Made by a program: the position numbers and the translations under genes
In this document: positions 3,920 through 38,101 of the stretch, piece after piece
Position numbering within the stretch: the stretch's first letter is position 1
How the letters are laid out: the number at the start of each line of letters is the position of its first letter
Assembly (NCBI GenBank): GCA_015956445.1
Contig: WIUZ02000027.1
Location: 62,001-126,000 of the forward strand
DNA: 64,000 bases
From: Thelephora terrestris
Lineage: Eukaryota; Basidiomycota; Agaricomycetes; Thelephorales; Thelephoraceae
Direction: 5' to 3'
The notes under the pieces: model-generated
Databases searched by the model: none
Told to the model about the DNA's origin: nothing
What the model saw: the letters and a program-made list of their open reading frames with translations, nothing else

Positions 3920-4439
3920 TGTCCCCTGCGATGACGATTGATTCTGTCGTGATCTCAAGTGTCCGAAGGAGCTTTTTCTGTGACAAATTGAAACACATGC
4001 TTTTCGCTGCAGATTGTTCCGTTGAGTCCACCGCCTCTTCTCCAGAAGAGAAAGCCTCACCGTATGGATTGGTTGGGTACAACCTCAGCATCTCCAGGGT
4101 CCCTGCACATTTTTCCGAAAGGAGTGGCAGGCACTTCACCCCGAAGAGGTCCATGCGATGAAACCGAAGTCCCCCGAAGAGAGTGATCATGTCCTTCATG
4201 ATCTGTTCCCTCGTGAAGAATATGAGCGTTAACCGTCCTCGCAGTGGGGGTGAGGAGAGGGGAATGAGTGTTGTGTCGGCCACATTCTCATGGCAATTCT
4301 TGAGGTCAGAGTAGTGAAGCTTGAGGTCTTGGAGATTTGGGAAGAGTCCAATGAAATACACAATCTGTCGGGAAGAGCCGATCGGCTCACTGAGGGCAAG
4401 GAACCGAAGTGTTGGGTGTCGAGCCCATTCAGCTACTTT

Positions 4440-4912
4440 TTCCTCATGACCCATGGACCGTACGGTGTGACAAAATCCCATGACCCATGGGCCATACGTC
4501 GCCGTACGACAGGTACAAATCCCCATGACCCATGGACCGTACGGTGGTGTGTGGGCCCCATGACCCATGGGTTGTACAGTGCTGTATGACAGTATGGCCT
4601 GTCCATGACCCATGGGTTGTACGATGCCGTACGGTGGTATGCCCTTCCCATGACCCATGGGTTGTACGGCACTGTACGGTGGTATGCCCTGCCCATGACC
4701 CATGGAGCGTACAGCGCCGTACGACAGTGTGCCCTGCCCATGACCCATGGGTTGTACGGCACCGTACGGTGGTATGCCCTGTCCATGACCCATGGGTCGT
4801 ATGGCACCGTACGGGGGTTTGCCCTACCCATGACCCATGGAGCGTACAGCGCTGTACGGTGGTATGCCTTGCCCATGACCCATGGGTTGTACAGTGCCGT
4901 ACGGTGGATTAC
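4440..4912. repeat. 45-bp tandem array, left arm of FB-0
   Basis: About 11 units of roughly 45 bp, each holding two short palindromes: CCCATGACCCATGGG around an NcoI-type CCATGG, and a GTACGGCRCCGTAC dyad. The same array in inverted orientation is at 6620-6770 plus 7808-8216. Because the period is a multiple of three, several frames stay open on both strands and give repetitive peptides; I do not regard these as genes. Confidence 0.9.
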
Positions 4913-5185
4913 CTTGAAAAAAAAATTTAATGGATTACCTAATAATGAACTATATGATGGATTACCTAAAAAAGAAATATTTGATGAATTACCTCAAAAG
5001 GAAATATTTGATGAATTACCTCAAAAGAAAATATTTGATGCATTACCTAAAAAGGAAATATCTGATGAATTACCTAAAAAGGAAATATTTGATAGATTAC
5101 CTAAAAAGAAAAATTTGCTTGACTGCCTAAAAGAGAAATAGTTGATGGATTACCTAAAAAGGAAATATCTGATTGATTCTGGAAA
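4913..5185. repeat. 27-bp tandem array (GGAAATATTTGATGGATTAC type)
   Basis: About ten units, each with AAAAGGAAATATTTGATG and ATTACCT. The inverted counterpart is at 6365-6612. The AAAAGGAAA and TTTGATGG words are shared with the arms of the other foldback elements (23.9-24.5, 26.8-27.2, 33.5-34.1 and 36.9-37.5 kb), linking all of them into one family. Confidence 0.85.
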
Positions 5186-5189
5186 ACAG

Positions 5190-6350
5190 CAACATCCTAA
5201 CCTAACCTCAAGGCACTGCCAGGTCAGGAATCCATTCACCTCTTGCGTTATTTTTCTGTTTGTAGTCCTGACTAACCCAAAGTGGTTAAGCTAACATCAT
5301 CCAATCTAACCTAACCTAACCTAACCTAACCTGAAATAGCCAATCTAACCCATTTCAACCTAACCTAACCTGCAGTGGTCTATCCAACCTGACTATAGCT
5401 TTGCCTAGGCTGACCCATGACAAACAAGTCCTAACTTAAACTTGACCTTGCCTAGCACACCAACATGTAACATGGGTTACAGGAATGCAGTGCAAAGTGC
5501 ATACCCCTTGGGGGACCTCCACCTGTATTTAGCCATAAGCTGGCTATCACTTGAACACACCTACTAACCTGGACCTACCAGTTGGTGGACCTGCAAGCCA
5601 AAAGGTCCTTGGACTGGTATTCCATAAAAGGTCCTGCCACTCAATTACCACCAACCACATTCACAAAACATCTCTTGCCCAGGCCAAAACTCAGCAACAA
5701 CTCAAATTTACCTATCTGAACAGACCCAGAATCCAGCTGGGTGTGTTCCTCCACATTACAGGCCCACAGACTTATAGACTTATGAATTAATGAGTCCACT
5801 GGGTCATAGGTTCAGCCAGGTGGATTGGCTTTATTTGTCATCAAGTTAATATCTGGTACAAGAGAGGTGAATATGGTTGGGTGGCAGGCACAGCTTATGG
5901 AGTATAGTCCATGGACCTGTTGGCTTGCAGGTCTACCAACTGGTAGGTCCAGGTTAGTAGGTGTGTTCAAGTGATAGCCAGCTTATGGCTAAATACAGGT
6001 GGAGGTCCCCCAAGGGGTATGCACTTTGCACTGCATTCCTGTAACCCATGTTACATGTTGGTGTGCTAGGCAAGGTCAAGTTTAAGTTAGGACTTGTTTG
6101 TCATGGGTCAGCTTAGGCAAAGCTATAGTCAGGTTGGATAGACCACTGCAGGTTAGGTTAGGTTGAAATGGGTTAGATTGGCTATTTCAGGTGGGTTGGG
6201 TTAGGTTAGGGTTAGGTTAGGTTAGGTGAGGGTTAGGTTAGGTTAGATTGGATGATGTTAGCTTAACCACTTTGGGTTAGTCAGGACTACAAACAGAAAA
6301 CTAATGCAAGAGGTGAATGGATTCCTGATCTGGCAGTGCCTTGAGGTTAG
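5190..6350. repeat. CCTAA-rich inner arms and core of FB-0
   Basis: Left side 5190-5450 has CCTAA pentamers and derived words; right side 6080-6350 is its inverse (TTAGG). Between them are the inner inverted segments (5450-5760 against 5780-6080) with imperfect matching. No coding sequence is supported here. Confidence 0.8.
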
Positions 6351-6364
6351 GTTAGGATGTTGCT

Positions 6365-6612
6365 ATTTTCCAGAATCAATCAGATATTTCCTTTTTAGAT
6401 AATCCATCAACTATTTCTCTTTTAGGCAGTCAAGCAAATTTTTCTTTTTAGGTAATCCATCAAATATTTCTTTTTTGGGGAGATCCATCAAATCTTTCCT
6501 TTTTAGGTGATTCATCAAATATTTCCTTTTTAGGTAATTCATCAAATATTTCTTTTTTAGGTAATCCATCATATAGTTCCTTATTAGGTAATCCATTAAA
6601 TATTCTTTTCGA
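6365..6612. repeat. 27-bp tandem array, inverted copy
   Basis: Reverse-complement counterpart of 4913-5185 in the right arm of FB-0, with one or two units differing from the left arm. Confidence 0.85.
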
Positions 6613-6770
6613 GGTAATCCACTGTATGGCACTGTACAACCCATGGGTCATGGGCAGGGCATACCACTTTACGGCACCGTACGCTCCATGGGTCATGGGC
6701 AGGGCATACTGTCGTACGGCGCCGTACGACCCATGGGTCATGGGTAGGGCAAACCCCTGTACAGTGCCGT

Positions 6771-7427
6771 TGTCGTGACTGTATTTCGGACACTATCCGG
6801 AATCGCGACCTTCTCTCAACTATCGACAACCGCTGCGCGAGGTCTAGATGACTTCCCTCAGCATTCTCGACTGTCCCGACAAGGACTCGCCTGTCCCTTT
6901 GCTTCGCTACACTTCCCTCTCTCCTTATCCCCCTTCGCGACATCACGACGTCCCGACGTTTTCCCCTTTCGACCTGCGACCTGCGACTTAGACCTGCGAC
7001 CTGCGACCTGCGCCCCCTCGACCCGCGACCTGCGACCTGCGTTTCTTAGCATTTAGTATCCCTAGGACTTTGTTTCCTTCACATTCCTTCCCGATCACGT
7101 CCCGATCAGTCCCGATTGTGTCCCGACTTTTCAGTACGTTTTATATCTTTAGTGCTCATCTCCCTATCTCCATTCTCTGCGTCCCGATCACGTCTCGATC
7201 GATCGCCCTGCTTGCGACTCCAGACCTCCCTCTGGTTCGTTTCTCAACCACATTCCTTTCCTTCATCATTCCCTTCGATCCCCCGCCTTCCCTATGTCAT
7301 AGACTCGTCATAAGGTCTCTTGACATCATTTTGGTTCGTTCCCTTTGGTTCCCTTCGTTCTCAGAGCCCTTAGCATTGTATATAAAGGCCCCTGTATTCG
7401 ATAGACCACAGAATCATTCAGCAGCGT

Positions 7428-7467
<40 letters not shown>

Positions 7468-7807
7468 GAGGCCTAGCAGCGTTGCTACGGTCCTCCCTTC
7501 GGTTCCCTCGTCGTCTTGCCCTCGTTCTCGTCGTCCCTCTGGTCTCTCGTGTCCCGCTGGTGTCCCGATTTCTGACTATCTCGTCCCGACGTTTCCCGAC
7601 GTTTCCCTTAGTTGACTATTGGTAGTTTCGTGCCCTGGCTTTCCTGTCGTCTTCTGTCTCGTTCTCCTGTTCGTATCCCGACTTTCCCTCTCACTGTTCA
7701 TTCGCTTCCCGCAGATTCCCTAGAGGCTCGCGCCTCTAAACCGAGGACCCGACCTTCTAACTGCCATCTCTGCCCTCTCGGACTTCGAAGGCTTTGTGGC
7801 TAGTTCA
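6771..7807 (+). mobile_element. Solo Gypsy LTR inserted in FB-0
   Basis: A 1037-bp sequence starts TGTCGTGACT and ends GGCTAGTTCA, flanked by CCGT on both sides (6767-6770 and 7808-7811). Removing it restores the 45-bp array. It has a TATA box (GTATATAAAGG, about 7378) and a (CT)n tract. The first and last bases resemble the LTRs at 9992 and 27864. The segment 7260-7410 matches 38515-38665 in another LTR, so this LTR family has at least two active-looking subtypes in the window. Confidence 0.8.
7428..7463. repeat. (CT)n microsatellite in the solo LTR
   Basis: About 17 CT units just downstream of the putative LTR TATA box, in the region expected to be R/U5 or the 5' untranslated sequence. Confidence 0.95.
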
Positions 7808-8216
7808 CCGTACGACCCATGGGTCATGGGTAGGGCATACCACCGTACGGTGCTGTACAACCCATGGGTCATGGGCAGGGCATACTGTCGTACGGCGCCG
7901 TACGCTCCATGGGTCATGGGCAGGGCATACCACCGTACGGCGCCGTACGCTCCATGGGTCATGGGCAGGGTGGATGGCTGTCCAGCACCACCGTACGGCC
8001 CATGGGTCATGGGAAGGGCATACCACTGTACGGCATCATACAACCCATGGGTCATGGACAGGGCATACTGTCATACAGCACCGTACAACCCATGGGTCAT
8101 GGGGCCCACACACCATCGTACGGTCCATGGGTCATGGGGATTTGTACCTGTTGTACGGCGACGTATGGCCCATGGGTCATGGGATTTTGTCACGCCATAT
8201 GGCCCATGACCCATGG
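7808..8216. repeat. 45-bp tandem array, right arm of FB-0 (continues from 6620-6770)
   Basis: Inverted counterpart of 4440-4912, with the same CCCATGGGTCATGGG and GTACGG dyads. It is split by the solo LTR 6771-7807, with about 150 bp of array left of the LTR. Confidence 0.9.
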
Positions 8217-8847
8217 GGAAAAAGTAGCTGAAACCTGTGGGGTGTCCAAAGTACTGTCGAAGACCTGGAATAAAGCTGGATACCTGGAGATTATCTATTC
8301 CAAGTTCCTGAAGGTTCTCAAGTGCGGAAAAGTAATACAGGTTGCGTCCACTGAAATCTTCAGGAGTGAACCGGCGGCCACCGTACCAATGGCGGATCCG
8401 AAATCGCTTGACAAGTCGAAGTAGGCCAAACTCGTACATTTTTTCAAGCGGTCCAGGCCAGTGATAGTTCTTGTCCTCCGAGGCGTAGGGGGACTCATCT
8501 GTTGTGAGGGAGTAATGAAGATGAGAGAAGGTGGCAAGGTACCACGAGTGACAAGTCAGGGAGCATGCTAGGAGATTTCGTATGTCGCAAATGAAGTAGG
8601 AGAGAATCTCCTCCACAATTTCTTGCGGCAGCTTGCCGAATGGAGATGGGTGAACGATGGTCGTTCTAGACGCCTTCGTGGCACCTGAACTGAACAACAA
8701 CTTGGTTTTTGTTTTTGTTCGGCACCAAAGTTGGCTGAGAATCGATCGGTTCGCTACAGAAGTGTCAGCGAACGCCACGATTAGATGAAACGATGGGATG
8801 CAGCTTGGATAAGCACCTGTTAACGAGGACATGTATGCCTTTTCCAC

Positions 8848-9090
8848 AGATGTTGTTGTAATCGTGAGTTTTTGCAGGGGAGAGTGCGGTTGTGGCGAAT
8901 CTTTCCGGTGGTGGAGTGGTGTGAGCTGGGAAAGGTCAGTCTGCTACTAGCCGTTGGAGGTGGGGTGATGATAAGCCTAAGTACCATGATCAACCCAGCT
9001 CAGCGGCGAAACCCGCCTGGCCATATTGACTCTTTCAGTGAATTGTATTCGACGAGAACAAGTGAATTCCCTAACATCTAGTATCCTTTT
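8848..9090. other. Intergenic region between divergent broken genes
   Basis: About 240 bp between the F-box start (minus strand) and the plus-strand gene remnant at 9090. I see no recognisable motif other than what would be a shared promoter region. Confidence 0.5.
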
Positions 9091-12855: not shown

Positions 12856-14654
12856 GATCCATTTAATCCAATCAACAAAGATCCACCTCCTCATCTCGCT
12901 GGGAAACCAGGAGCTCTCGCAGGAACTTCCCAGAATCGCCCACAAGGTCCAATTAAGCCTATCACTATGCAGCCCAAGCCATCCGCCGATGAATCTAGAA
13001 CTCACTACCACGCCGCTATCGAGGACTCAGCCAAAGCCTCTGACATTCTCGAACGAGTTCTCAATATAAAGATTCCAGTATCTGCTCGCGAAATCCTCGC
13101 CGTCTCCAACGATGCCCGGAGACAGGTGACACTGGGAGCAAGGGGTCAAATACCCGGTGGGTACATGCTGAACACATTGTGATCACAGTCAACAAGTGAT
13201 CACAATGTGCCCAGTGGGAAAATTTTGAATACATTAAAAATGTGCCTGGCCATGTGAGTCCAATGTGCCCAGTAGGCACATTTTGATTGTGATCACAATG
13301 TACCCATCAATGTGATCTCAATGTGCCCACTGGGGACATTTTGATTGTGATCACAATGTACACATCAATGTGAACTCAATGTGCCTGCTGTGCACATTTT
13401 AATTTCTTTCACAATGTTCCCATCAATGTGTTCACAATGTACCCAGCTCATTACATAATAGTTTCTTTCACAATGTTGTCCACAATGTGTCCAGCATGTG
13501 GCTGAGCCACTCATTCAAACTTCTTTCACAAAATATCCAGTGATGTGTCTAGAATGTGTACAGCCATACACATAGTGATTTCTTTGAGAGTTCATGGTGA
13601 AATCAAACAATATTGTGATTACATTGTGATTACTTCAAAAGGAACCCCCTGGGGACATTATGGACACATCACTGGGTAATCTTTGAAAGAATTTTGAATG
13701 AGTGGCTCAGCCACATGCTGGACACATTGTGGACAACATTGTGAAAGAAACTATTATGCAATGAGCTGGGTACATTGTGAACACATTGATGGGAACATTG
13801 TGAAAGAAATTAAAATGTACACAGCAGGCACATTGAGTTCACATTGATGTGTACATTGTGATCACAATCAAAATGTCCCCAGTGGGCACATTGAGATCAC
13901 ATTGATGGGTACATTGTGATCACAATCAAAATGTGCCTACTGGGCACATTGGACTCACATGGCCAGGCACATTTTTAATGTATTCAAAATTTTCCCACTG
14001 GGCACATTGTGATCACTTGTTGACTGTGATCACAATGTGTTCAGCATGTACCCACCGGGTATTTGACCCCTTGTCCCCAGTGTGAAGGACCTTGTAACCT
14101 CTAAAAAGGTTTCGGCGAATCTACTGGAAGCAGGGACCACTGACTCTACTTATAGGATCGCGGAAACTTCCCCATTCGACGTCTATGAGTACTCGTCTCC
14201 ATCTGCCGCTCCGTTCCTCCCGCTACAGGTGATCACTCTCAACATCGCTCCAGGAGTGACACCCGAGTGTATCCTCGACGGAGGATCGCAGATTGTGGTC
14301 ATGAGACGCGACGTCTGGGAGAAGCTCCGTGTACCTATCACGGCGGACAGAGCTATGAAGATGGAGTCTGCGAACTCTGGGACAACTCTCACTCTCGGAG
14401 AAATCGAGAACTTCCCCGTGAAGATTGGACCAGTTACCGTCCACCTTCAGATCCAAGTCGTCCCTTCAGCTCCATTCGAAGTCCTTCTCGGAAGGCCCTT
14501 TTTCGATGTCCTCAACTGCACTGAATACAGCCGAGCCGGCGGTGTTCACGAGATCAAAATAAAGGACCCCGAGACAGGAACTCCATATGTGTTCGCCACG
14601 CAGCCGCGCCAGCATAAGAACTCTAAGGGATCTGCGGTAAATTTTCGTATGTAG
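12856..14654 (+). CDS. Gypsy protease region, interrupted by a CACTG MITE
   Basis: The frame after the gag stop runs to 13129, is interrupted by the MITE 13130-14082 and resumes at 14083. Joining at the TGA duplication keeps the frame. The downstream part (about 14220-14560) holds a retropepsin-like aspartic protease: an ILDGGSQIVVM segment, where the catalytic triad is normally DSGS/DTGA-like and here reads DGGS, then a flap-like stretch and VLLGRPFFD near the C-terminus. The frame stops at TAG (14652-14654), and the RT frame opens in a different frame within about 20 bases. This layout fits either a programmed frameshift or a lesion. Confidence 0.65.
13130..14082. mobile_element. CACTG-ended foldback MITE, copy 1 (953 bp)
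   Basis: Starts CACTGGGAGCAAGGGGTCAA and ends with a near-inverse of it; flanked by TGA at 13127-13129 and 14083-14085 (3-bp duplication). The whole element is a long palindrome centred near 13606, built from many copies of GTGATCACAATGTGCCCA-like words. CACT(A/G) ends with 3-bp duplications are typical of the CACTA/EnSpm (CMC) superfamily. No coding capacity. Confidence 0.85.
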
Positions 14655-14671
14655 ACGGTCCTTCGAGAGAG

Positions 14672-17570
14672 ATGTCCTCCTCTCGGCAACATTCCCAGCC
14701 CCGGGAAACGTTCGCCCTCGTCGAAGTTCCGTCGCGATTACCCAGTTCTCTTAGAGCCACTTCTGGTTCATCTGTACCCCCTTCACTTTCGTCGTCTTTC
14801 CCCCAGTTCGATTCTCCCCTTTCCCCTTCGTCGCCTGTGACTCGTTTTGAATCTATTGCTCCTTCTTCTTCGTTGTGGACCGTTGCTTCTTCTTCTTCCT
14901 CGATTTCTCCCTCCTCGTCTGCGAATGTCCTTTCCCCGGCGCAACTACCGCTACCTGTTTCCACCTCCATTTTCTGGGACAATAGTGAGTCCCTTCTCGA
15001 GCCTACTGTACTTCCCGATAATGCATCTATTTTGAGCTCGTATTCCCCCGTTCCCTCTGCAATTTCCTCTGAAACTCGGCATGTATTTTCACCTTCGCAT
15101 GTATCCTCTTGCTTTTCTCTCCACTCACCTCAACCTGTATCTTCTCCTTTGCATGTGCCGATCTTCGTTTCTCCGGATTCCTCTCTCCATTCCTCCCTTC
15201 CTGTATCTTCTTCTTCTCGTGTCCCGACTTTGATTCCCTCTCTCTCTCTTTCTCAGCATGTATCTTCATCTTCGCATGTTCTGTTTCCTTTCGATTCTTC
15301 ACTTCGTTCGCCTCCTGCCAGCGTTCTCCACACCTTCTTCCAGTCCCTATCCTCCTTGGATCGTCGGACCGCCTACTCCTCCTTCGCTACCCTTCGCAAC
15401 GCTATTCCTCCTTCACCCACCAATCCCTACACTCCCATCCAGCTTGCTAGCCTCTGGATCTCCGAGCAGTTCACGGAGAATCCCTTTATCGAGCTAGAAC
15501 AGGATGGTGTGGCTTTCCTCTACAAGAAGGTTGCAAATAAAACTAGGCCGGTTGCGACGACTCTTCCGGAGAATTTCCGAATTATTCGCCATGAGCATCC
15601 TGACCCTCTCGCTGGACTACTAGATCTTCCGGTCCACCCTCCTGACTTCCGCCCTACCGGGAGGTTCACTAGCGAGAGACGGGACAATATGGCTATCGGA
15701 AAGGACTTACTTTGGCCCGAGGAAATCAAGCTTGCCGAGTGGATTGTGTCCAAACACGATTCAGCCTTTGCCTGGACAGATGACGAACGAGGATCTTTTG
15801 ACCCCCAGTACTTTGCCCCCATCGAGATTCCGCATATCTCTCACATCCCTTGGGTACTTAAGCAAGGTCCGATCCCTCGCGGCATCCTTCGAGAAGTCAT
15901 AAAAATCATCGAAGACAAGTGGCGGTCTGGAGTGTACGAACCCTCTTCTTCATCGTACAACAGCCGCTGGTTCTGTGTCTTCAAGAAGGATGGCAAGTCT
16001 CTTCGTCTGGTCCACTCGCTCGAGCCATTGAACGCCGTTACCGTTCGCAACGCCGCAATGCCTCCCTATACTGAGGTAGTCGCCGAGGACTTTGCTGGAA
16101 GATCGATCTACACCACTTTAGATCTCTATGTGTCTTTCGACCAGCGACGGTTACACGAGAAGTCCCGCGACATGACGACGTTTAACACTCCTCTCGGCTC
16201 CTTCAGGCTTACGGTTCTCCCTATGGGATGGACTAACTCTCCCGCAGTTCTCCAAGGTGACATCATGCACATTCTTCGCCCTGAGATTCCACATTGGACT
16301 CAGCCCTTCGCCAACAATGTTCCAATTAAAGGCCCCAAGACTCGCTACGAGTTCCCCGACGGATCCTTCGAGACGATTGACGGAAACTCCGGTATCTGTC
16401 AATTCGTCTGGGAACATCTTGAGGCCGTTAATCGAATCATCCATCGCGTTCAGTCCTACGGCGCCACCTTCAGCGGAAAGAAAGCATTCATTGGCGTTCC
16501 GCAGGCTGACATCGTCGGACATGTGTGCACCTACGAAGGAAGAATCGCGGATCCTTCCCGAGTTCAGGCACTTCAGGACTGGCCTATCCCAAAGAGCGTC
16601 TCCGAGGTTCGTGCGTTCCTAGGAACGTGCGGAGTCTTGCAAATCTTCATTAAAGGATATACGCTCATCGCGCGGCCGCTGATTCAGCTGACTCGAAAGG
16701 ACGTCCCCTTTGAGATCGATCCCCAGCAGTTAGAGGCTTTCGAGAGACTGAAGCTAGCCGTGCTCAGTTCTCCGGCTCTACTTCCCATCGAGTATGAGTG
16801 CGATTGTCCTGTTATCTTAGTGGTCGACTCGTGCGCGAATGGAGTAGGGTATATCCTCTTTCAGCTCGGTGACAACGGAAAGCGGTATCCCAGCAGGTTT
16901 GGCTCCATCACCTTCAATGATCGTGAATCCCGCTACTCTCAGGCGAAGCTCGAGTTGTATGGCCTCTTTCGAGCCCTTCGCCACACTCAGCTATTCACGA
17001 TTGGTGTTCGGAAGCTAGTCGTCGAGATGGATGCCAAGTACATCAAAGGCATGATTAATAGCCCTACTCTCCACCCCAACGACGCTATCAACCGCTGGAT
17101 CGCTGCTATCCTCCTCTTTGACTTCGAGCTCGTTCACGTCCCCACAGAGAGACACACTGGAGCTGACGGACTCTCCCGACGCCCCTGAGCTTCAGTAGAT
17201 CCTCCTCGCGATGACGGTGAAGAGCTCGAAGATTGGATTGATGAGAACGCTGGCTTTTTCATTGGACTCCATTCCCCTTTTTCTTCTACTGACCCTTTGC
17301 TTCCTCTCATTCGTTCTCATGTGGCGAAAAAGCATGTATTTTCCTTCGGCTCTCCTTCGGTTTCTTCCTCCTCTGTTTTCTCCTCTTCTTCCGTTTCTCC
17401 TCCTCCGCCCCCTCTTTCCCCGGAGATTCCCAGATCTCCAAAGGCTATCCTTCGCGACAAGAAGACTTCCCTCATTCGGCAGTTCCTCGCCAATCCCCAG
17501 CGTCCTCCAGCCCTCTCTGATGAGCAGTACCGGCTCTTCATTCGACAGGCCACGGAGTTCTTCTTGTTCA
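14672..17570 (+). pseudogene. Gypsy reverse transcriptase - RNase H, with active-site and stop lesions
   Basis: The open frame 14672-17188 (838 aa) has a long Ser/Pro-rich N-terminal region (about 220 residues), then RT (about residues 400-640) and RNase H (about 700-838, ending in the usual DGLSRRP). RT signatures are clear: VFKKDGKSLRLVHSLEPLN, TLDLYVSFDQRRL with the first catalytic Asp kept, and LPMGWTNSPAV. The YxDD box, however, reads FANNV: codons 16313-16318 are AAC AAT, so both catalytic Asp are Asn, each a G-to-A change. A TGA at 17186-17188 interrupts the frame, which then continues in phase to the MITE at 17571. This copy is therefore unlikely to reverse-transcribe. Confidence 0.8.
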
Positions 17571-18071
17571 CACTGGGGGCAGGGGCACCTGGAATCGGTG
17601 ATTACATCTTGATTACATGGTGAGTTCATGTGCACTTTTCAATAATTGTAATTGCCGATTCCAGGTTGATTACATTTCAAATGTTACCTTGACATGCAAT
17701 CCAACCAATGTCCACCAATTCCATTTGAAATGTTCTCAACAGATGTTTCTGGGATGCTTTTGACCTGTCGGCAAAAATGATACTGCAATGTAATCAGCAT
17801 GTTCTTCAATCGTCCGAGATGTAATCTAAATGCACTCAAAAACATGAGATGTTTTCACAATGTACCCACTGGGCACATTCAGGAAACATTGCTTGGGAAC
17901 ATCTTGAGGAAATTTCAAATGGAGTTGGTGGCAACAGTTGGATTACATGTCAAGGTAACATTTTAAATGTAATCAACCTGGAATCGGCAATTACAATTAT
18001 TGAAAAGTGCACATGAACTCACCATGTAATCAAAATGTAATCACTGATTCCAGGTGCCCCTGCCCCCAGTG
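17571..18071. mobile_element. CACTG-ended foldback MITE, copy 2 (501 bp)
   Basis: Starts CACTGGGGGCAGGGGCACCT and ends with its inverse; flanked by TCA at 17568-17570 and 18072-18074. It is palindromic throughout, with a centre near 17820. The subterminal words (GTAATCAA..CATGTAATC) differ from those of copy 1, so it is a subfamily rather than a close copy. Removing it joins the pol frame without loss. Confidence 0.85.
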
Positions 18072-25128: not shown

Positions 25129-25159
<31 letters not shown>

Positions 25160-26110
25160 TCTTATTCTGTCTTACCTACCCTAGACCCAACCTAACCTGA
25201 AATAGTCAACTTAACCTGGTCCACCACAGATCACCCAACCTAACCTAAAGTGGTCTACCTGACCTAGACTGATGCAACTTGAGTTTATCTCTTCTAATCA
25301 GCTGTTATCCTATCTGGCCTTAATCTAGATACCGTAGCTAACCAACATCTAACCCAACCTCACCTGGCTCACCAGCAAGTAACTGGGCTACAGGAACACA
25401 CCGTGAGCTGCACCATCCCATATCCTATATCCAACTGTCACTCAAACACAAGAACTGTGGTGGACCTACAAGTTAGTGGAAACATCTGTTATCCATCCTC
25501 ACTCATGTACCACCCTCACCCTGTGTTCTGTGCCAGACTGCAACTTCACCACAGCTCATGTTCAGCCACCTAGCTAAACCTGCAAGTCAGGGTGATAGAC
25601 TACTTGTTATGGATCCATGGATTTGTAGACCTGATTGTACATGGGTTTAGCTAGGTGGCTGAACATGAGCTGTGGTGAAGTTGCAGTCTGGCACAGAACA
25701 CAGGGTGAGGGTGGTACATGAGTGAGGATGGATAACAGATGTTTCCACTGAGTGAACAGCCTATACTTGTGGGTCTGTGGGCTTATGGGTCCACTAACTT
25801 GTAGGTCCACCACAGTTCTTGTGTTTGAGTGACAGTTGGATATAGGATATGGGATGGTGCAGCTCACGGTGTGTTCCTGTAGCCCAGTTACTTGCTGGTG
25901 AGCCAGGTGAGGTTGGGTTAGATGTTGGTTAGCTACGGTATCTAGATTAAGGCCAGATAGGATAACAGCTGATTAGAAGAGATAAACTCAAGTTGCATCA
26001 GTCTAGGTCAGGTAGACCACTTTAGGTTAGGTTGGGTGATCTGTGGTGGACCAGGTTAAGTTGACTATTTCAGGTTAGGTTGGGTCTAGGGTAGGTAAGA
26101 CAGAATAAGA

Positions 26111-26141
<31 letters not shown>

Positions 26142-28076
26142 AGATAAGATAAGATAAGATAAGATAAGGCTGAACTAGGCCAGGTCAGAGTTAGGTTTAG
26201 GGCAGGTTAGGTTTAGGTTTAGGTTTAGGTTTGGTGCTAGGATAGGTTTGGGGCAGGCTGGGTTTAGGGCAGGTTAAGTTTGGGGTTAGGTTAGGTTAGG
26301 TTAGGTTTAGGTTAGGTTAGGTTAGGTTAGGTTTGGGTTTAGGTTAGGTGTAGGTTTAGGTCTAGGTTAGGGTTAGAGTTAGGGTTAGGCTAGGTTAGGG
26401 TTAGAGTTAAGGTTAGGCTAGGTTAGGTTAAGTTAGGTCCAGGACTAGGTTTAGGGCTAGTTTATGACCACAAACTGGTCTGTACTTCATGATATAATGA
26501 ATATTACAGATATATTTGTATTTTCCTATTTTCATCTATTTTTTGGGGATTTTTATGAATTTTTTGGGCAAAAAATATATTAATATTAAAATTATGGGCT
26601 ATTCAATGGACCAAAAAAATTGGAATAATTTTTATAAAATATTTATCTATACTCTGGAATTTTTGGAATTTTTTTGGAATTTTTTCCTGATTTTTCCAGC
26701 CAGAAAAACAATTTTTTGAATATTTCTGGGAATAATTTACCATTTTGGGCACTTTCTAGACGTGTGGGAATTTTTTCAGTATTTTTTAGGATTTTTCTGG
26801 CATTTTTCCGAATTTTCTAGCATATAATTTCCTTTTTAGGAAATTTCTTCTTTTGGTAATTTTTGCCAGAATCATTTATGAGTTGCTTATGTAAGCCATC
26901 AAAATTTCCTTTTTTGGTAATTTTTGCAAAAAGCATTTTTGAGCTGCTTATGTAAGCCATCAAATATTTCCTAAAAAGGAATTTCCTTTTTGGGAAAGAC
27001 CCCTTCAAAAGCATTTTTGAGACGCTTATGTAAGCCATCAAAACTTTCCTTTTTTGGTCGGTCACATGACCTGATTACATAAGCAACACCCACTTTTTTC
27101 AGTCACATGACCTGCTTATGTCAGCCATCAAAATTTCCCAAAAAGGAAATTCAATATCAAAATCATTTTTGAGTTGCTTATGTAAGCCATCAAAAATTTC
27201 CTTTTTGGGAAATTCTGATCGGAAATTCCCACAGTCCATTTTTCATTTTCTGCCCTCCCTGACACCCGTGGGAATTTTCTAATAATTTTTGGAATTTTTC
27301 CAGAATTTTCTGGAATTTCCCTGAATTTTTTAATTTTTATTATATAAGCAATCCACTCTCCCGGGCCACCCACACTGTCGGCACCTGCCTAATTGGGAGC
27401 ACCAGTGCCCAGTAAGCTGGGTCCCAGTCTCCCCCATAATTTCCATTAAAACTTTATGAGTAAAATATCCCCCCTCAGGCCATTCAAAAACTCATGAGAA
27501 AAATCATTCAAATTTGCGACAAAAACTCCTAAAACATTAATGTTTTTAATAAGGACTACTGGAGAACGGTCCACGTTCTGTCCCCGGTACCTAGTTCCTC
27601 AAACATACTCAACCTCCACACCTCGCGAACAGATTCCCAGATCCCTTAGTCGACGGATATGCAACCTTCACCTCTTCAAAAGTCCACGGAGAGTCGTTCT
27701 TGATAGATGGGAACAATCCTCCCTTACGATCAATCGCGTCAAGAGGACCGAACGGAGGAAGGGGATTCCCCTTGGCGTCAGATGGGCACCAGGTCATAGA
27801 GAACGAAGGAAAGGTTATCGGATTGGCAACCGAGGACGGTTGATTTTTAAAGTCCCGAGGAGATGTCGTGACGTCGAAACTCCCAATCTCCGATTCCTTC
27901 CTATTGGTCGTTCGACTCCATTGAGTTCCGGACTCTTCTTGGCCTCGCGACTGCCTCGAGGCAGCCTTCACCCTGATCACCGGACCGCCTCTATTGTTTC
28001 TCGGACGTTCTTCCCCGCTTCGCACCTCCCCTCGGGAACCCTGTTTTGAATCCTCGTGTTCTGCCATCCGCCACAC
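22356..28076 (-). CDS. Antisense spliced gene of the Gypsy element, Zn2Cys6-like protein (575 aa)
   Basis: Exons 28076-27622, 23686-23149 and 23090-22356 give 575 aa without stops. Exon 1 begins inside the 3' LTR; intron 1 contains the 3.8-kb foldback. Exon 3 opens with a cysteine cluster at residues 333-369: C-x2-C-x6-C, a 15-residue spacer, then C-x2-C-x6-C with one more Cys inside the second half. This layout recalls fungal Zn2Cys6 DNA-binding domains, with CRECQSRKEKC as the first half. The region before it is Lys-rich and Pro-rich; the tail is acidic and Ser-rich. A role in regulating the element or its host is conceivable but unproven. The duplicate of exon 1 at 10204-9992 in the 5' LTR has no downstream exons. 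Excised of the foldback, intron 1 would be about 91 bp. Confidence 0.65.
23724..27561. mobile_element. Giant foldback element FB-1 (3838 bp)
   Basis: Starts CAGTAGTCCTTATTAAAAAC and ends with its exact inverse; flanked by GAGAACG at 23717-23723 and 27562-27568 (7-bp duplication). Arms of about 1.85 kb are practically identical, and the translated arm segments match residue for residue. A 60-65 bp loop surrounds 25580-25645. Each arm has repeats of GATGGCTTACATAAGC and AAAAGGAAATT (23.9-24.5 kb), AT-rich sequence, CCTAA/CCCTAA-like repeats (24840-25100), a TATCT pentamer run (25115-25165) and unique sequence near the loop. The left arm lacks about 50 bp present in the right arm at about 25750-25800. 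It lies in an intron of the antisense gene. No transposase. Confidence 0.9.
24836..25190. repeat. CCTAA and TATCT pentamer arrays, left arm of FB-1
   Basis: Interleaved CCTAA, CCTAAA and CCCTAA words followed by about nine TATCT units. The inverse lies at 26095-26455. The basic unit is a pentamer, unlike the TTAGGG hexamer expected at basidiomycete telomeres. Confidence 0.9.
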
Positions 28077-28968: not shown

Positions 28969-31050
28969 GGATTTGTAGACCTGAGAATACATGGTTTCAG
29001 CCAGGTGGCTGAACTTGAGTTGTGGTGAAGTTGCAGTCTGGCACAAAACATGCAGGGTGAGGGTGGTATGTGGGCGAGATTGGATAACAGATGTCTCTAC
29101 TGAGTGAGCAGTCTGTGGGTGTGGGTCTGTGGGCTTATAGGTCCACTAACTTGTAGGTCCACCACAGTTGTTGTGCTTGGGTGACAGATGGATATAGGAT
29201 TGGATGGTGCAGCTCACAGTGTGTTCCTGTAACCCAGTCATGTGCTGGTGAGCCAGGTGAGGTTGGGTTAGATGTTGGTTAGCTAGGGTATTTAGATTGA
29301 GGTTAGATAAGATGACAGCTGATTAGATAAGATCAAGTCAAGTTGCATCAGGCTAGGTCAGGTGGACCACTTTAGGTTAGGTTGAGTGATCTGTGGTGGA
29401 CTGGGTTAAGTGGACTATGTCAGGTTAGGCTAGGCTGGATTAGGTTAGGTTTAGGGTGGGTGAGATAGAATAAGATAGATAAGATAAGATAAGGCCAAAC
29501 TAGGCCAGGTCAGGGTTAGGACTAGGTGAGGTTAGAATTGGGTTAGGTTTAGGACAGGTTGGGTTTAGGTTTAGGTTTAGATTAGGTTAGGTTAGGTTAG
29601 GTTTAGGGCAGGTAAGGTTTAGGGCAGGTTAGGTTTAGCATTAGATTGAGGTTTAGGGTAGGTTTAGGTTTAGGGCAGGTTTAGGTTTAGGGTTAGGGAC
29701 AGGTTTAGAGTTAGGTTAGGTTATGTCTAGCACTAGGTTTAGATTTAGGGTTAGTTTATGACTACAAACAGATCTGAACTTTATGATATAATGAATATTT
29801 TAGATCTCATTGTCATTTTTAATTTTCAGTTACCTTTTTAGGATTTCTATGAATTTTGTGGACAGAAAATACATTGATATCAAAATTATAGGCTACTTAA
29901 TGAATGAAAAATATCAGAATAATTTTCATAAAATATTTATCTATATTCTGGATTTTTTGAAAATTATTTCGGATTTTTTCCTGATTTTTCCAGCCAGAAA
30001 AACAATTTATTTAGATATTTGTGGGATTATTTGCATTTTTTGGGACTTTCTAGATCCGTGGAAATTTTTTCAGTATTTTTTAGGATTTTTCTGGCATTTT
30101 TCCAAATTTTCTAACATATAATTTCTTTTTTTGGTAATTGTTTCCAGTATCATTTTTGAGTCGCTTATGTAAGCCATCAAAATTGCCTATTTTGGAAAGT
30201 CTTTCCTAAAAGGAAATTTCCTGTTTGGGAAATCTCATTTTGAGTTGCTTATGTAAGCAATTAAAATTTCTTTTTTTGGTAATCCATCAAATATTTCTTA
30301 AAAAGGAATTTCATTTTTGAGACACTTATGTAAGCCATCAAAACTTTCCTTTTTTGGTTGGTCACATGACCTGATTACATAACCAACCCCCACTTTTTTG
30401 GTCACATGATCTGTTTATGTCAGCTATCAAAATTTCCCAAAAAGGAAATTCAATGCCAAAATCATTTTGAAGTTGCTTATGTAAGCCATCAAAAATTTCT
30501 TTTTTTGGTCAGTCACATGACTTGCTTACATAATCCTCTCTCACTCATGCATCACATGACCAGCTTATGTTGGCCATCAAAATATCTCCATTTGGAATAT
30601 TCCCTCACAACACCTCTCCATCATTGCTTATATAAGCCATAAAAACTTCCCCTTTTGGAATTCCCTTTCCTGGCCATGTCACATGACCTTCTCACACAAT
30701 CCATCACGGACCCACCAATGCCCCTGTCATATACCCCCATTAGGTCCAAATATATCCCGATTAGGCCTCCAATGCTACTTGACCACCCCTTTGTGCTTCT
30801 CACAGATTTAATGTCAAAACCCCGTCTGCCAACATCATCTGGTCACATGACCCCCTCACACGACCAATTCCGTTCCTACTGATGCTCCTGTTATGTAATC
30901 CCATCAGGCCCAAATATGTCCCAATTAGGCCCCAAATGCTACTTGACCACCCCTTTGTGCTTCCCACACATTTACTATCAAATCCTTCCCACTGATTAAC
31001 TGTAATAAAATGGCACCCTTGCCACACTTTTTACATAAATGGTTGTCACC
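28969..31050. mobile_element. Half of a foldback element (FB-half)
   Basis: Reads like the right arm of FB-1 and FB-2 from the loop outward: the core near 28969-29250, TTAGG and AAGAT pentamers (29380-29760), AT-rich sequence, then GCTTATGTAAGCCATCAAAA and AAAAGGAAA repeats (30120-30650). The left arm is absent and the first base abuts the truncated LTR. Its outer part (30680-30965) holds a direct duplication of about 160 bp (AATGCTACTTGACCACCCC in both copies). The outer end near 31050 is not defined, and no duplication was found. Confidence 0.65.
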
Positions 31051-31261
31051 ACAGCTGATTCAACTCCGTCGGCTGGTCATCCTGGGTCTTCGTCGTGTGG
31101 GTGCCCATGTAATATCATCAGTGTCTTTGTCTGGTTTCCGATGACATGTGAGTCGTGATAAGGGAAATGGATAGAATAAGAAAGGGGTATAGGTAAGGAA
31201 AGTGGGCGAAAGTTGGGTGTGAAAACGGTTCAAAAAGAGGGTAAAATTCAGCACGCTGACA

Positions 31262-32311
31262 CCACCCATCAACATTGCTCCCATCATTCCTGTCTGCACA
31301 AACCCCACTCCGCCTTGCCCTGATGACAGTGTTAGGGGTCACAGCCCTCCTTCACCTGACGTCAATTTCGAAATATCTGCTATTGACATCTACACGCTCT
31401 CGACGTCAATCAACGTCCAGGTCTCATCTACAGGCGAAGACACCACCACATCGGCACTTGCTGAGCTGGGATTTACTGGAAATGTGCCATTCAAACCCAC
31501 TGATGCCATCTCCATCAAGACTCTTGACCTATATTGACTTTTGCGCCGGCGTAAGCCATCGTTCAGTGTTGAGGCCTTTGTAAAGGACATTGCCGACCTT
31601 TATTTGGTACGTCAAATCCTCATCACTTTTTACATTATCACTGGGGGCAAGGGCCCAAATACCCACTGGGCACATTGTGATTACATTGTGGTCACAGTCA
31701 AAAGGTGACTCCAATGTGCCCAGTGGGTATATTGTGAATACATTTTGAATGTACCCCATCATGTGAATCAAATTTCACCACCACCAAACATGTAGATCAC
31801 ATTCAAAACTTTCCCCAAAAAGTGTTTCGAATGCAATCGGCGATCACATTCACAATGTATTCAACATGTGGAGGTACATTGTGAACACATTTTAAATGTC
31901 ATTGATTTTACAATGTGAATCGAATGTATTCAAAATATGCCTGGGACATGCATTTTGGTGCATTATGGTCACATGACTGGGTACATTGTAAATGCGATCA
32001 GTATTTGCTCAGTGGTAATATTAAATTCACATTTTTGGGCACATTTTGAATGTACCTGATTTTTACCCACTGCGCACATTGGGATCACTTGTTGACTGTA
32101 ACCACAATGTAATCACAATGTACCTGGTGGGTATTTGGGCCCTTGCCCCCAGTGTATGCTCACCTAGAAACAGATCCCGTATCGTCCCAGGTACCGCCGC
32201 GTGTTTGCAGACGCCTTCAACATCTATCTGGAGATCATCAGAATCATCGACAAGCATGTCAAGGTGGCGCTTGGTCAGGACGGTCCAGATTGGCGCGTGT
32301 TGAACGCGTGC
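31262..32311 (+). pseudogene. KDZ (Kyakuja-Dileera-Zisupton) transposase N-terminal fragment
   Basis: The frame up to 31606 contains FEISAIDIYTLSTSINV, LAELGFTGNVPFKPTDAISI and RKPSFSVEAFVKDIADLY, apart from a stop near 31537 after TLDLY. An intron (31607-32167) follows, and the exon from 32168 continues with PRYRRVFADAFNIYLEII, DKHVKVALG and DWRVLNAC. This succession is, from memory, the N-terminal CxC-associated region of KDZ transposases, common in Agaricomycetes. The fragment ends where the inverted flank starts, so no catalytic residues are present. The splice junction keeps the frame. Confidence 0.65.
31639..32154. mobile_element. CACTG-ended foldback MITE, copy 3 (516 bp)
   Basis: Starts CACTGGGGGCAAGGGCCCAA and ends with its inverse; flanked by TAT at 31636-31638 and 32155-32157. 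Its ends share the CACTGGGRGCARGGG consensus with copies 1 and 2, and its interior has the same ATTGTGATCACAATG-type words. It sits inside an intron of the KDZ fragment. Confidence 0.85.
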
Positions 32312-32561
32312 TGTCAGCGTGCTGAATGTTATTCCCTTTTTGAACCATTTTCACACCCAACTTTCGCCCACTTTCCTTACCTATACCCCTTTCCTATCTT
32401 ATCATTTCCTTTATCACGACTCACACGTCATCAAGGAACACAGACAAGGACACTGATGACATTACACAAGGCGTGCAGCGAAGACACAAGACTACCAAAC
32501 CGACGGAGTTGAATCCGCACGGACTCTATGGACGAGGACCAAGGTGTACAAACCCTAGCCG

Positions 32562-35500
32562 TCAAGACCTGGTCTGCCAGTACTCCTCAGTACTGGCAAC
32601 CTCCTCCTCCGTCCCCTCCGAGGCATTCTCGTCGACTTCCTCATCGACCATCTCGACGACCCGAGCTTCCTCCAGACGATGAGCGACGGCCAACTGAACC
32701 TCGGCGCGAAGGCGGTTCCTCGCTGAATCAACCGTAGTCTGATCCAGAGTCCTCTGGACTGACCAACCCTCCACTCTCTCGGTCAGTTGAGCCACCAGGC
32801 GAACGGCCTCCGCTGCACGCTGGACCGACAAGAGCGTAAGGTCGGTTAAGCCGTTCACGTCGACGGACTCCACCGGAATCAGCTCGCCGCGATCCACACG
32901 ACACTGTAGCATCGTCGCATCGGAATAAGACAGTGGATTCAATGTCTCCACCCTGGCGGACGACGTTGGGATTACTGGGACGCATACGGTGCGCTGGACG
33001 AAGTGCCCCGCGATAAGGAACCCAACGACGAGCACGGATAGAACGTTGACCACGCACCGGCGAGATCGAAGGAGGCGGAATCGGAACGGCCACCTCGTTC
33101 TCCCCCGCGTACTCCAACTCGGGAGAACTGCTAACCGGATTCACGGCCGTCTCCTTGGACGTCTCGCGGACGACCTCTTCCCCGCCATCAGTGTGCGCTG
33201 GTGTACGGTACGAACCGTCGGAGGCTAAAAAGGATGTCAGTGGACCAATAGCTGCAGCCCAAAAAATATATTAATTCCTGTTAGCAAAGGGAGTGACTTT
33301 TATATTTGACCTGGGTTGTCCTCACAATTATAATTGCAACTTTAACCCAGCAAGAATTATAAATGTAGCCTCCCCTTGCCTGACGTCCCATCCATCGTAC
33401 TGGGTACTGGCCCATTGCTTTGGACCCAAGGAATTGATGGGCTGATGGGATATGCCCAGTGCTTCGGGCACATGCTGGTGCCACAACCGTGGGAAATGAT
33501 TTCCCACGCTCCTGCCCTTTGTTGCTGACATAGGCTGGTCATGTGACCTACCAAAAGGGGGTAATTTTGATGGCTTATATAAGCAAGTCATGTGACTGAA
33601 AAGAGTGGATGTTGATTATATAAGCAGGTCATGACTGACCAAAAAAGGAAAGTTTTGATGGCTTACATAAGCAACTCAAAAATGATTTTGGCATTGAATT
33701 TCCCTTTTAGGAAAATTTGATGGCTGATATAAGCAGGTCATGTGACTGAAAAAAGTGGGTGTTGCTTATGTAATCAGGTCATGTGACTGACCAAAAAAGG
33801 AAAATTTTGATGGCTTACATAAGCGTCTCAAAAATGCTTTTGGAGGGGTCTTTCCCAAAAAGGAATTTCCTTTTTAGGAAATATTTGATGGATTACCAAA
33901 AAAGGAAATTTTGATGGCTTACATAAGCAACTCAAAAATGATTTTGACAAAAATTCCCAAAAAAGAAATTTCCTTTTTAAGAAAGACTTTCCAAAAAAGG
34001 CAATTTGATGGCTTATGTAAGCAACTTGAAAATGCTTTTGGCAAAAATTACCAAAAAAAGAAATTTCCCAAAAAGGAAATTATATGCCAGAAAAATCGGA
34101 AAAATGCCAGAAAAATTCTAAAAAATTCCGAAAAAATTCCCACGGGTTTAGAAAGTGCCCAAAATGGTCAATTAATTCCAAAAATATCGAAAAAATGGTT
34201 TTTCTGGCTGGATAAATCCGGAAAAATTCCGAAAAAATTACCAAAAATTCCAGAATATGTATAAATATTTTATAAAAATTAAATTAATTTTTTTTGCCCA
34301 TTAAACAGCTCACAATTTTGATATTAATGTATTTTCTGCCCCTAAAAATCCAGAAAAATCTCCAAAAATTAATGAAAAATTTAAAATTACATATATATCC
34401 ATAATCTTTGCTATATCATAAAATACAGACCCATTTGTGGTCATAAACTAGCCCTAGACCTAAACCTAGTCCTGGACCTAACCTAACCTAACCTGAACCT
34501 GAACCTAAACCTAAACCTGCCCTAAACCTAACCTAACCTAACCTAACCCTGAACCTAAACCTAACCTAAACCTAAACCTAAACATAACCTAACCTAACCT
34601 AACCTAACCTAACCTAACCTAACCTAACCTAACCTAACCTAACCTAACCTAACCTAACCTAACCTAACCCTAACCCTAAACCTGAACCTAACCTTGCCTA
34701 GTTTGGCCTTATCTTATCTTATCTTATCTTATCTTATTTTGAACCTGCTCTAAACCTAAACTTGAATCTAAACCTAACCTCAACCTCAACTTACCCTACC
34801 CTAACTCAACCTACCCCTAACCTAACCTGCCCTAAACCTAGCCTGCCCTAAACCTAACCTAGCACTAAACCTAACCTAGTACAGAACCTAGCCTAGGACC
34901 AAACCTAAACCTAAACCTAACCTGCCCTAAGCCTAACCCAATTCTAACCTCACCTAGTCCTAACCCTGACCTGGCCTTGTTTGGCCTTATCTTATTTTAT
35001 CTCATCTTATCTTATCTTACCTTATTATGTCTTACCTAACCTAACCCAGCCTAACCTAACCTGACATAGTCCACTCAACCTAATCCACCACACAGATCAC
35101 CCAACCTAACCTAACCTAGGGTGGTCCACCTGACCTAGCCTGATGCAACTTGACTTGATCTCATCTAATCAGCTGTCATCTTATCTAACCTTAATTTCAA
35201 TACCCTAGCTAACCAACATCTGACTCAACCTCACCTGGCTCACTAGCACATGACTGGGCTATAGGAACACACTATCAGCTGTACCATCCCATATCCTGTA
35301 TCCAACTGTCACTCAAGCACAACAACTGTGGTGGACCTACAAGTTAGTGGGCCTACCAGCCCACAGACCCACAACTGTAAACTGCTCACTCAGTGGAGAC
35401 ACCTGTTATCCAACCTCACCCATGTACCACCCTCACCCTGTGTTCTGTGCCAGACCACAACTTCACCACAACTCAAGTTTAATCACCTGGCTGAACCTGC

Positions 35501-38101
35501 AAGCCAGATAGATATAGACTACCAGTTACACATCCATGAATTTGTAAGCCTGAGAGCACATGTTTCAGCCAGGTGGCTGAACTTGAGTTGTGGTGAAGTT
35601 GTGGTCTGGCACAGAACACAGGGTGAGGGTGGTACATGGGTGAGGTTGGATAACAGGTGTCTCCACTGAGTGAGCAGTTTACAGTTGTGGGTCTGTGGGC
35701 TGGTAGGCCCACTAACTTGTAGGTCCACCACAGTTGTTGTGCTTGAGTGACAGTTGGATACAGGATATGGGATGGTACAGCTGATAGTGTGTTCCTATAG
35801 CCCAGTCATGTGCTAGTGAGCCAGGTGAGGTTGAGTCAGATGTTGGTTAGCTAGGGTATTGAAATTAAGGTTAGATAAGATGACAGCTGATTAGATGAGA
35901 TCAAGTCAAGTTGCATCAGGCTAGGTCAGGTGGACCACCCTAGGTTAGGTTAGGTTGGGTGATCTGTGTGGTGGATTAGGTTGAGTGGACTATGTCAGGT
36001 TAGGTTAGGCTGGGTTAGGTTAGGTAAGACATAATAAGGTAAGATAAGATAAGATGAGATAAAATAAGATAAGGCCAAACAAGGCCAGGTCAGGGTTAGG
36101 ACTAGGTGAGGTTAGAATTGGGTTAGGCTTAGGGCAGGTTAGGTTTAGGTTTAGGTTTGGTCCTAGGCTAGGTTCTGTACTAGGTTAGGTTTAGTGCTAG
36201 GTTAGGTTTAGGGCAGGCTAGGTTTAGGGCAGGTTAGGTTAGGGGTAGGTTGAGTTAGGGTAGGGTAAGTTGAGGTTGAGGTTAGGTTTAGATTCAAGTT
36301 TAGGTTTAGAGCAGGTTCAAAATAAGATAAGATAAGATAAGATAAGATAAGGCCAAACTAGGCAAGGTTAGGTTCAGGTTTAGGGTTAGGGTTAGGTTAG
36401 GTTAGGTTAGGTTAGGTTAGGTTAGGTTAGGTTAGGTTAGGTTAGGTTAGGTTAGGTTAGGTTAGGTTAGGTTATGTTTAGGTTTAGGTTTAGGTTAGGT
36501 TTAGGTTCAGGGTTAGGTTAGGTTAGGTTAGGTTTAGGGCAGGTTTAGGTTTAGGTTCAGGTTCAGGTTAGGTTAGGTTAGGTCCAGGACTAGGTTTAGG
36601 TCTAGGGCTAGTTTATGACCACAAATGGGTCTGTATTTTATGATATAGCAAAGATTATGGATATATATGTAATTTTAAATTTTTCATTAATTTTTGGAGA
36701 TTTTTCTGGATTTTTAGGGGCAGAAAATACATTAATATCAAAATTGTGAGCTGTTTAATGGGCAAAAAAAATTAATTTAATTTTTATAAAATATTTATAC
36801 ATATTCTGGAATTTTTGGTAATTTTTTCGGAATTTTTCCGGATTTATCCAGCCAGAAAAACCATTTTTTCGATATTTTTGGAATTAATTGACCATTTTGG
36901 GCACTTTCTAAACCCGTGGGAATTTTTTCGGAATTTTTTAGAATTTTTCTGGCATTTTTCCGATTTTTCTGGCATATAATTTCCTTTTTGGGAAATTTCT
37001 TTTTTTGGTAATTTTTGCCAAAAGCATTTTCAAGTTGCTTACATAAGCCATCAAATTGCCTTTTTTGGAAAGTCTTTCTTAAAAAGGAAATTTCTTTTTT
37101 GGGAATTTTTGTCAAAATCATTTTTGAGTTGCTTATGTAAGCCATCAAAATTTCCTTTTTTGGTAATCCATCAAATATTTCCTAAAAAGGAAATTCCTTT
37201 TTGGGAAAGACCCCTCCAAAAGCATTTTTGAGACGCTTATGTAAGCCATCAAAATTTTCCTTTTTTGGTCAGTCACATGACCTGATTACATAAGCAACAC
37301 CCACTTTTTTCAGTCACATGACCTGCTTATATCAGCCATCAAATTTTCCTAAAAGGGAAATTCAATGCCAAAATCATTTTTGAGTTGCTTATGTAAGCCA
37401 TCAAAACTTTCCTTTTTTGGTCAGTCATGACCTGCTTATATAATCAACATCCACTCTTTTCAGTCACATGACTTGCTTATATAAGCCATCAAAATTACCC
37501 CCTTTTGGTAGGTCACATGACCAGCCTATGTCAGCAACAAAGGGCAGGAGCGTGGGAAATCATTTCCCACGGTTGTGGCACCAGCATGTGCCCGAAGCAC
37601 TGGGCATATCCCATCAGCCCATCAATTCCTTGGGTCCAAAGCAATGGGCCAGTACCCAGTACGATGGATGGGACGTCAGGCAAGGGGAGGCTACATTTAT
37701 AATTCTTGCTGGGTTAAAGTTGCAATTATAATTGTGAGGACAACCCAGGTCAAATATAAAAGTGCTCCCATTGTAACCCCAATAATTATAAAAACTGGGC
37801 TGCAGCTGCTCAGTGGACAAAGCCAAATATGTCAACCGACATCCCACCTATGGGAGAAGCCATCCGATCCGGTATCGACTCGTCCTCGGACTCGTCGCGA
37901 ACCGCAGCCACCGAACGAGTGCGGCAGTGACACAACCGCTCGCTCATCGATTCGACCCGAGCGCCCAACAATGGCAAAGCGTCGTCCAACGTATCGACCT
38001 AGGAGTGGCATGAGCTCTCTTGGACAAAGACCAGGAGAAGTCGCACCGACCTTGGTGTCGAGCTCATTCAGAGCCCTTCTATGACGGTGACATGCCTCCA
38101 T
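32562..38101 (-). CDS. Antisense accessory gene of a third Gypsy element, interrupted by FB-2 in an intron
   Basis: Right part (38101-37820): a helical exon (RRALNELDTK), then an exon with LGARVESMSERLCHC, a coiled coil ending in CxC. Left part (33226-32562): an exon with ELEYAGENEVAVP and a Pro-rich linker, then a helical tail (LVAQLTERVEGW, EARVVEMVDEEVDE) in another frame. A GT..AG intron of about 51 bp with a CTGAC branch site (CACTGACATCCTTTTTAG) would join the coil exon to the ELEYA exon once FB-2 is removed. The coil - CxC - ELEYA order is the same as in the gene at 96-1698. The change of frame near 33050 is unexplained (an intron or a lesion), so the C-terminal limit is uncertain. Function unknown. 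Confidence 0.5.
33246..37809. mobile_element. Giant foldback element FB-2 (4564 bp)
   Basis: Ends CAATAGCTGCAGCCC.. / ..GGGCTGCAGCTGC; flanked by TCAGTGGAC at 33237-33245 and 37810-37818 (9-bp duplication). The arms meet near 35527 and are nearly identical except in the outermost 40-60 bp, which differ. Layout as in FB-1: GGCTTACATAAGC and AAAAGGAAA repeats (33530-34100), AT-rich sequence, long CCTAA runs (34480-34680, more than 20 units in one stretch) and TATCT runs, then the CCACCTGGCTGAA core. Outer unique sequence (33290-33530 and 37530-37765) is not shared with FB-1. No transposase is encoded. Confidence 0.9.

Follow-up and report, generated by a model that had tools for sequence, protein, structure and literature searches.

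The window, by which we mean the whole stretch of 64,000 nucleotides analysed, contained two complete foldback palindromes (B and C), one half element (subtype D) and a diverged palindrome (A). Element B (23724-27561, no strand assigned) was delimited by inverted-repeat and flank comparison and carried the ends CAGTAGTCC...GGACTACTG. By inverted-repeat search, its left outer arm (23724-25158, plus strand, 1435 nt) was 100% complementary to its right outer arm (26127-27561, minus strand). Between them lay the core (25165-26123, no strand assigned), in which two inverted core arms surrounded a central loop near 25610-25640, and besides the outer arms an inner inverted repeat of 369 nt at 99% was detected (25117-25485/25785-26153). 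Element C (33246-37811, no strand assigned), with the termini CAATAGC/GAGCAGC, exhibited inverted arms of 2200 nt at 100% in the search of the window (33296-35495/35564-37763). The arm lengths of B and C are far beyond chance. The long inverted repeats made up most of the element and contained internal tandem repeats, which is the structure of a foldback element. The subtype D half (28969-31057, minus strand) started inside the central loop and stopped at the CAGCTG terminus (CAGCTGTGG); the initial annotation had likewise seen a half element here, with its end at 31050 instead of 31057.

The motifs CCTAA, TATCT, AAAAGGAAA and GCTTACATAAGC/GCTTATGTAAGC were observed in B, C and the D half, in agreement with the interior plan first proposed for them. 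B and C matched each other at 74-81% from ∼350 bp (B) or ∼390 bp (C) inward, while their outer ends did not match, as had also been noticed; matches of the D half reached 77% to B and 78-84% to C. The longest stop-to-stop frames were 121 aa in B, 134 aa in C and 105 aa in the D half, none of them long, in keeping with the initial annotation. B was flanked by a 7-bp target duplication, GAGAACG (23717-23723 and 27562-27568, plus strand). For C, a 7-bp duplication AGTGGAC (33239-33245 and 37812-37818, plus strand) fitted the aligned termini, and a 9-bp string, TCAGTGGAC, was likewise present on both sides. Duplications of 7, 7 and 9 bp had been assigned to A, B and C; the first two were retained, and for C the 7-bp reading would place the right end at 37811.

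Palindrome A (4421-8239, no strand assigned) was flanked by the 7-bp repeat GGGTGTC (4414-4420 and 8240-8246, plus strand). Its arms were recovered by inverted-repeat search as pieces of 88-97%, were ∼88% alike overall and were interrupted by ∼1 kb, which amends the earlier description of A as complete. The longest stop-to-stop frame in A was 207 aa. When GCTTACATAAGC was sought within A it was absent, and the matches of A to B and C were confined to short pentamer and AAAAGGAAA stretches. These two results do not support the inclusion of A in the family, and A appears from its sequence to be an older palindrome that shares only low-complexity motifs with B and C. A 45-bp minisatellite occupied the outer parts of A (4557-4907 and 7806-8103); by eye, the sequence to the right of B pair C18:125664-129737 (CAGGGCATACT) resembled it.

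Several other repeats were observed in the window. Two inverted copies, 94% alike, were found 30 kb apart (18702-20507 and 51078-52883), with a frame for a gypsy-type reverse transcriptase nearby (14627-17188), and frames with an integrase core domain (rva_4, PF24764) adjoined the foldback cluster (40673-42236). Short palindromes of 287-953 bp with CACTG...CAGTG ends were present at 13130-14082, 17571-18071 and 31639-32154, and also in L009, L011, L015-L017, L021, L024, L026 and L027. Among 14 distinct palindromes of this kind in the window and L009-L028 (19 rows minus four inner matches and one locus seen twice), 13 had 3-bp target duplications, as expected for the CACTA/EnSpm kind.

The genome assembly (40.6 Mb in 60 contigs) was searched for further copies, as the initial annotation had suggested. 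Its KDZ content and Ty3-like frames suggest that it belongs to a basidiomycete. A 40-base core stretch gave 157 matches (77 + 80, up to 3 mismatches), and its reversed control gave no match genome-wide. Among the 100 core matches listed, most paired up as minus/plus at a spacing of 520-613 bases, with five wider pairs (1.6-7.5 kb) and eight matches for which no partner was listed. With up to 3 mismatches allowed, the 27-base B end gave 40 + 40 matches, with none in the control, and the D end gave 6 + 10. For dispersed copies, 40 of 325 candidates were scored and twenty 10-kb stretches were taken, two of which represent one locus; in each of L011 to L028 a long inverted repeat was found at the searched place. 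Chance, or a one-off duplication in the assembly, was excluded as the origin of the palindromes by these dispersed, differing copies with their own duplications. Inserts of 2.4 kb inside the foldback cores of L012 (∼3977-6396), L013 (3988-6388) and L014 (3752-6147), 85-90% alike, were considered as an autonomous form and rejected, since they lay at three different places with 5-bp repeats and TG..CA ends. In sequence they look like independent insertions of a short LTR-type element.

At least 146 B-like ends were found, and the 115 of them with listed flanks yielded 51 adjacent inward-facing pairs; with up to 2 mismatches allowed, the reversed control of this end search matched 29 times, and some weak ends may therefore be chance matches. 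It was found that 16 pairs had a 7-bp duplication and one an 8-bp duplication, and 34 had none, so that the flank comparison proposed at the outset supplied a duplication length for 17 of the 51 pairs. In the cross-pair control only 2 of 2550 combinations reached 6 bp. For pairs 3.2-4.1 kb long (n = 29), a duplication was present in 11 and absent in 18. The flanks of L021, L026 and L019 aligned to uninterrupted paralogues within the window, overlapping by 7 (579-585), 7 (527-533) and 8 bases (21085-21092), respectively. L015, of subtype D, had the unlike termini CAGCTGTGG and CATTAGTGG, arms 90% alike and a 7-bp duplication TTGTCGG. The duplication length expected for KDZ/Kyakuja-like elements, 7 bp, was thus observed in 16 of the 17 duplicated B-like pairs and also in A, B and L015, with C readable as 7 or 9 bp. 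The termini CA..TG were present in B and D (L015), and C and A each had GA at one terminus. Dispersed copies, target duplications and uninterrupted paralogous sites, together with the short frames of B, C and the D half, confirm the reading as a family of foldback transposons.

A genome-wide search for transposases gave 125 KDZ matches and 2 MULE matches, and the KDZ search matched none of 14 control genomes. Eight pairs of B-like ends lay at least 10 kb apart. The four with a 7-bp duplication (C3:1044747-1057121, C5:455340-466448, C10:30644-41437 and C11:753958-764910) all enclosed KDZ matches. The other four (C3:468361, C12:913664, C23:711158 and C56:1986918) enclosed none; each of these pairs probably combines ends of different elements. 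The C3 element (L029/L030) had terminal inverted repeats (TIRs) of 1283 bp at 100%, and its frames included KDZ and CxC2 domains. The outermost 152 bp of this element matched the B ends at ∼81-83%, so that B shares its terminus with a KDZ-bearing element. An 840-bp palindrome lay between two KDZ pieces of this element, and its KDZ gene is thus interrupted. One of its frames resembled a fungal protein kinase, though weakly and below the cut-off. The C5 element (L031/L032) also carried KDZ and CxC2 domains between TIRs of 1311 bp at 100%; it had ∼18 bases in common with B and no blast match to it.

A KDZ locus on C4 had one end resembling subtype D, with 66 of 87 aligned positions identical to L015 and 64 of 87 to the window half. 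The alignment scores were 77 and 69, compared with shuffle maxima of 22 (500 shuffles, for L015) and 29, and a separate alignment to subtype D gave 75 bp at 77%; one blast had missed the match for want of an 11-base seed. This end showed no similarity to B or C ends, and neither the C ends nor the A ends were encountered on any KDZ element. Judged by these alignments, B and D ends occur on KDZ-bearing loci.

Most foldback elements are assigned to Mutator, although a few are not, among them Galileo, which belongs to the P superfamily (PMC4079207). Drosophila FB had been the comparison first offered for the palindromes here. A foldback of this kind, moved by a Mutator-superfamily transposase, would account for the long repeat-filled arms without genes and for the 9-bp string flanking C. 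Duplications of ∼9 bp and a MULE transposase with the same ends would be expected of it; the duplications were instead 7 bp in 16 of 17 cases, MULE matches numbered 2 against 125 for KDZ, and the B and D ends were found on KDZ-bearing elements. We consequently regard this origin as highly improbable, and both it and the kinship with FB were rejected. On sequence grounds the family is best classed as non-autonomous foldbacks of the KDZ (Kyakuja-like) type, not of the MULE/FB type.

Four known systems come closest, as described in the consulted parts of each report. Kyakuja transposons (KDZ superfamily) of Agaricomycotina have been reported, for two Laccaria families (Kojima 2025), to have 7-bp duplications, CA..TG termini and no TIRs (PMC12730594). 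The duplications are alike, as are the termini of B and D, those of C and A having GA on one side; KDZ and CxC2 domains also recur here, in elements with B- or D-like ends. Kyakuja differs in being coding and without TIRs, whereas the family here has gene-free kilobase foldback arms and two KDZ elements with perfect TIRs of 1.28 and 1.31 kb; since the no-TIR feature does not hold, the family was filed as KDZ, Kyakuja-like, rather than as Kyakuja. KDZ1-KDZ3 of Cryptococcus neoformans also have a KDZ transposase, a length of ∼9-11 kb and TIRs, but the TIRs are 139-241 bp, the duplications 4-8 bp and the additional domain CxC1, and no foldback form was seen in that source (PMC12810828). Galileo of Drosophila likewise has foldback-like long TIRs outside Mutator and causes inversions through ectopic recombination between copies, but it has a P-type transposase and a fly host (PMC4168063). 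Tetris/FB-type foldbacks share the gene-free repeat-filled arms, possible repeat homogenisation in some copies and ends in common with a MITE implicated in inversions; they differ in their 8-10-bp duplications, a suggested Mutator origin and an autonomous partner that was not found (PMC4079207). In the consulted portions of the literature on foldbacks, KDZ/Kyakuja and basidiomycetes/Agaricomycetes, no KDZ foldback was found, which is not proof of absence.

The arms were compared within and between elements, omitting L011_R, L017_L and L017_R (outer) and L012_R (core) because of low coverage. Over the outer 1.1 kb, the median distance was 0.0009 within elements versus 0.056 between them, and in 13 of 18 elements an outer arm had its own partner as its closest match (the exceptions being L012, L013, L018, L022 and L024). 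In 11 B elements out of 20 elements, 57 private substitutions of the outer arms were mirrored in both arms and 12 were in one arm. The outer arms therefore change in concert, element by element. In the core, the partner was nearest in 6 of 19 cases, with 8 mirrored and 12 one-arm substitutions (11 of these in L026); no concerted signal was observed, in a core so nearly invariant between B copies that the comparison has little power. The pentamer zone was equal in length between the arms in 7 of 14 elements and differed by 5-67 bp in the others.

The symmetry might simply have been inherited, if the elements are recent copies of a symmetrical lineage master or if an arm is re-copied only during transposition. 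The near-zero outer distance in many copies would be expected if they are young. However, the private substitutions sit in both arms (57 versus 12), implying that a change in one arm was copied to the other at some point, and L014 has zero outer difference as well; the right flank of L014 is part of an insertion that another element shares (its left flank was also compared with L009). We find inheritance rather unlikely, and arm-to-arm conversion is most likely the cause of the symmetry. L018 had a left CAGTAGTCC end and a right CAGTAGTAC end. Its arms were ∼85% (inner) and ∼72% (outer) alike, and no duplication flanked it, as if the product of an exchange had yet to be evened out between the arms.

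To pair the flanks of elements without duplications, complementary 7-mers were tested in all 115 end flanks in any orientation. Besides the 16 own pairs, two other partnerships were obtained, both right-right and each on one contig (C45 and C59), and three shifted controls gave 2 matches together. The C59 elements (C59:850217-853824 and C59:930941-937192) had right flanks 83 kb apart. In uninterrupted paralogues, twice in L009 and at the L015/L016 locus, these flanks adjoined each other back to back and overlapped by exactly 7 bases; the left flanks did not match each other. Such a pattern could result from an inversion between the two elements or from an assembler having flipped the segment. 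The C45 pair had no usable paralogue. Mirrored flanks were also observed at a B-type pair (G000 C16:590314-597975, in L034, L035, L038 and L039), where the palindrome reached beyond the element: the flanks were 98.8% alike over the nearest 2.19 kb (of which ∼0.19 kb is element) and 94.8% alike over the next 1.6 kb, the similarity stopping ∼3.6 kb out.

An assembler can flip a segment between two palindromes, and both the missing duplications and the inversion signature might be errors made where no read crossed the whole palindrome. Duplications were indeed present in 13 of 14 of the easily spanned CACTG palindromes (0.29-0.95 kb) and in 11 of 29 full-size B pairs (3.2-4.1 kb). Yet mis-joins should leave the partner flanks elsewhere, and just two non-own 7-bp pairs occurred among the 115 listed ends; moreover, flanking duplications were present in 4 of 4 cases for the KDZ elements, which are 11-12 kb long and have TIRs of 1.3 kb (measured in 2 of them). 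Assembly error is therefore considered unlikely. Aberrant transposition, joining the ends of two elements or of sister copies, might instead have changed the flanks, with no recombination inside the arms. L014, L023, L025 and L027, all without duplication, have zero outer-arm differences, which disfavours crossing-over between unlike arms, and mis-pairing would be easy as all ends are alike. Against this, the form of the hybrid L018 and of the half cut at its loop suggests that palindromes were exchanged or broken internally, and aberrant transposition as the sole cause seems doubtful. The missing duplications were probably caused by recombination or aberrant transposition.

In our judgement, the B, C and D palindromes are likely to be non-autonomous DNA transposons of the foldback class, mobilised in trans by Kyakuja-like transposases of the KDZ superfamily that the same genome encodes. 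The dispersed copies, 7-bp duplications, uninterrupted paralogous sites and the termini that B and D share with KDZ loci were observed directly, and they point to mobilisation by KDZ. Counting against KDZ are the description of Kyakuja without TIRs, the end shared with the C3 element, which spans just 152 bp, and the 34 of 51 pairs without duplication. Further points against it are the ∼18 bases that the C5 family has in common with B, the failure to find C or A ends on KDZ elements, the GA at one terminus of C and of A, the lack of a concerted signal in the core and the palindrome that interrupts the C3 KDZ gene, a doubtful source of active enzyme. A KDZ transposase would bind the B, C or D ends, excise the element and insert it elsewhere, with a gene-free palindrome as passenger inside the ends. 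An extruded palindrome may be broken or copied, so that one arm is converted from the other and the outer arms stay alike. The same recombination could produce the hybrids, loop-cut halves, elements without duplications and inversions whose signatures were seen. Tentatively, and with less than even confidence, we suggest that the palindrome acts as a self-copying platform: conversion would spread a one-side terminus to both sides, the inner module would swap ends (B, C and D, with L018 half-way) and could thereby change transposase, and loop breakage would make the elements hot spots for inversions and flank loss.

A KDZ origin would add another source superfamily for foldback elements, with candidate mobilisers in the same genome. 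The dozens of individually mirrored copies could be used to measure how the symmetry of a kilobase palindrome is kept up and how chromosomes are rearranged, and these foldbacks may shuffle the surrounding chromosome.
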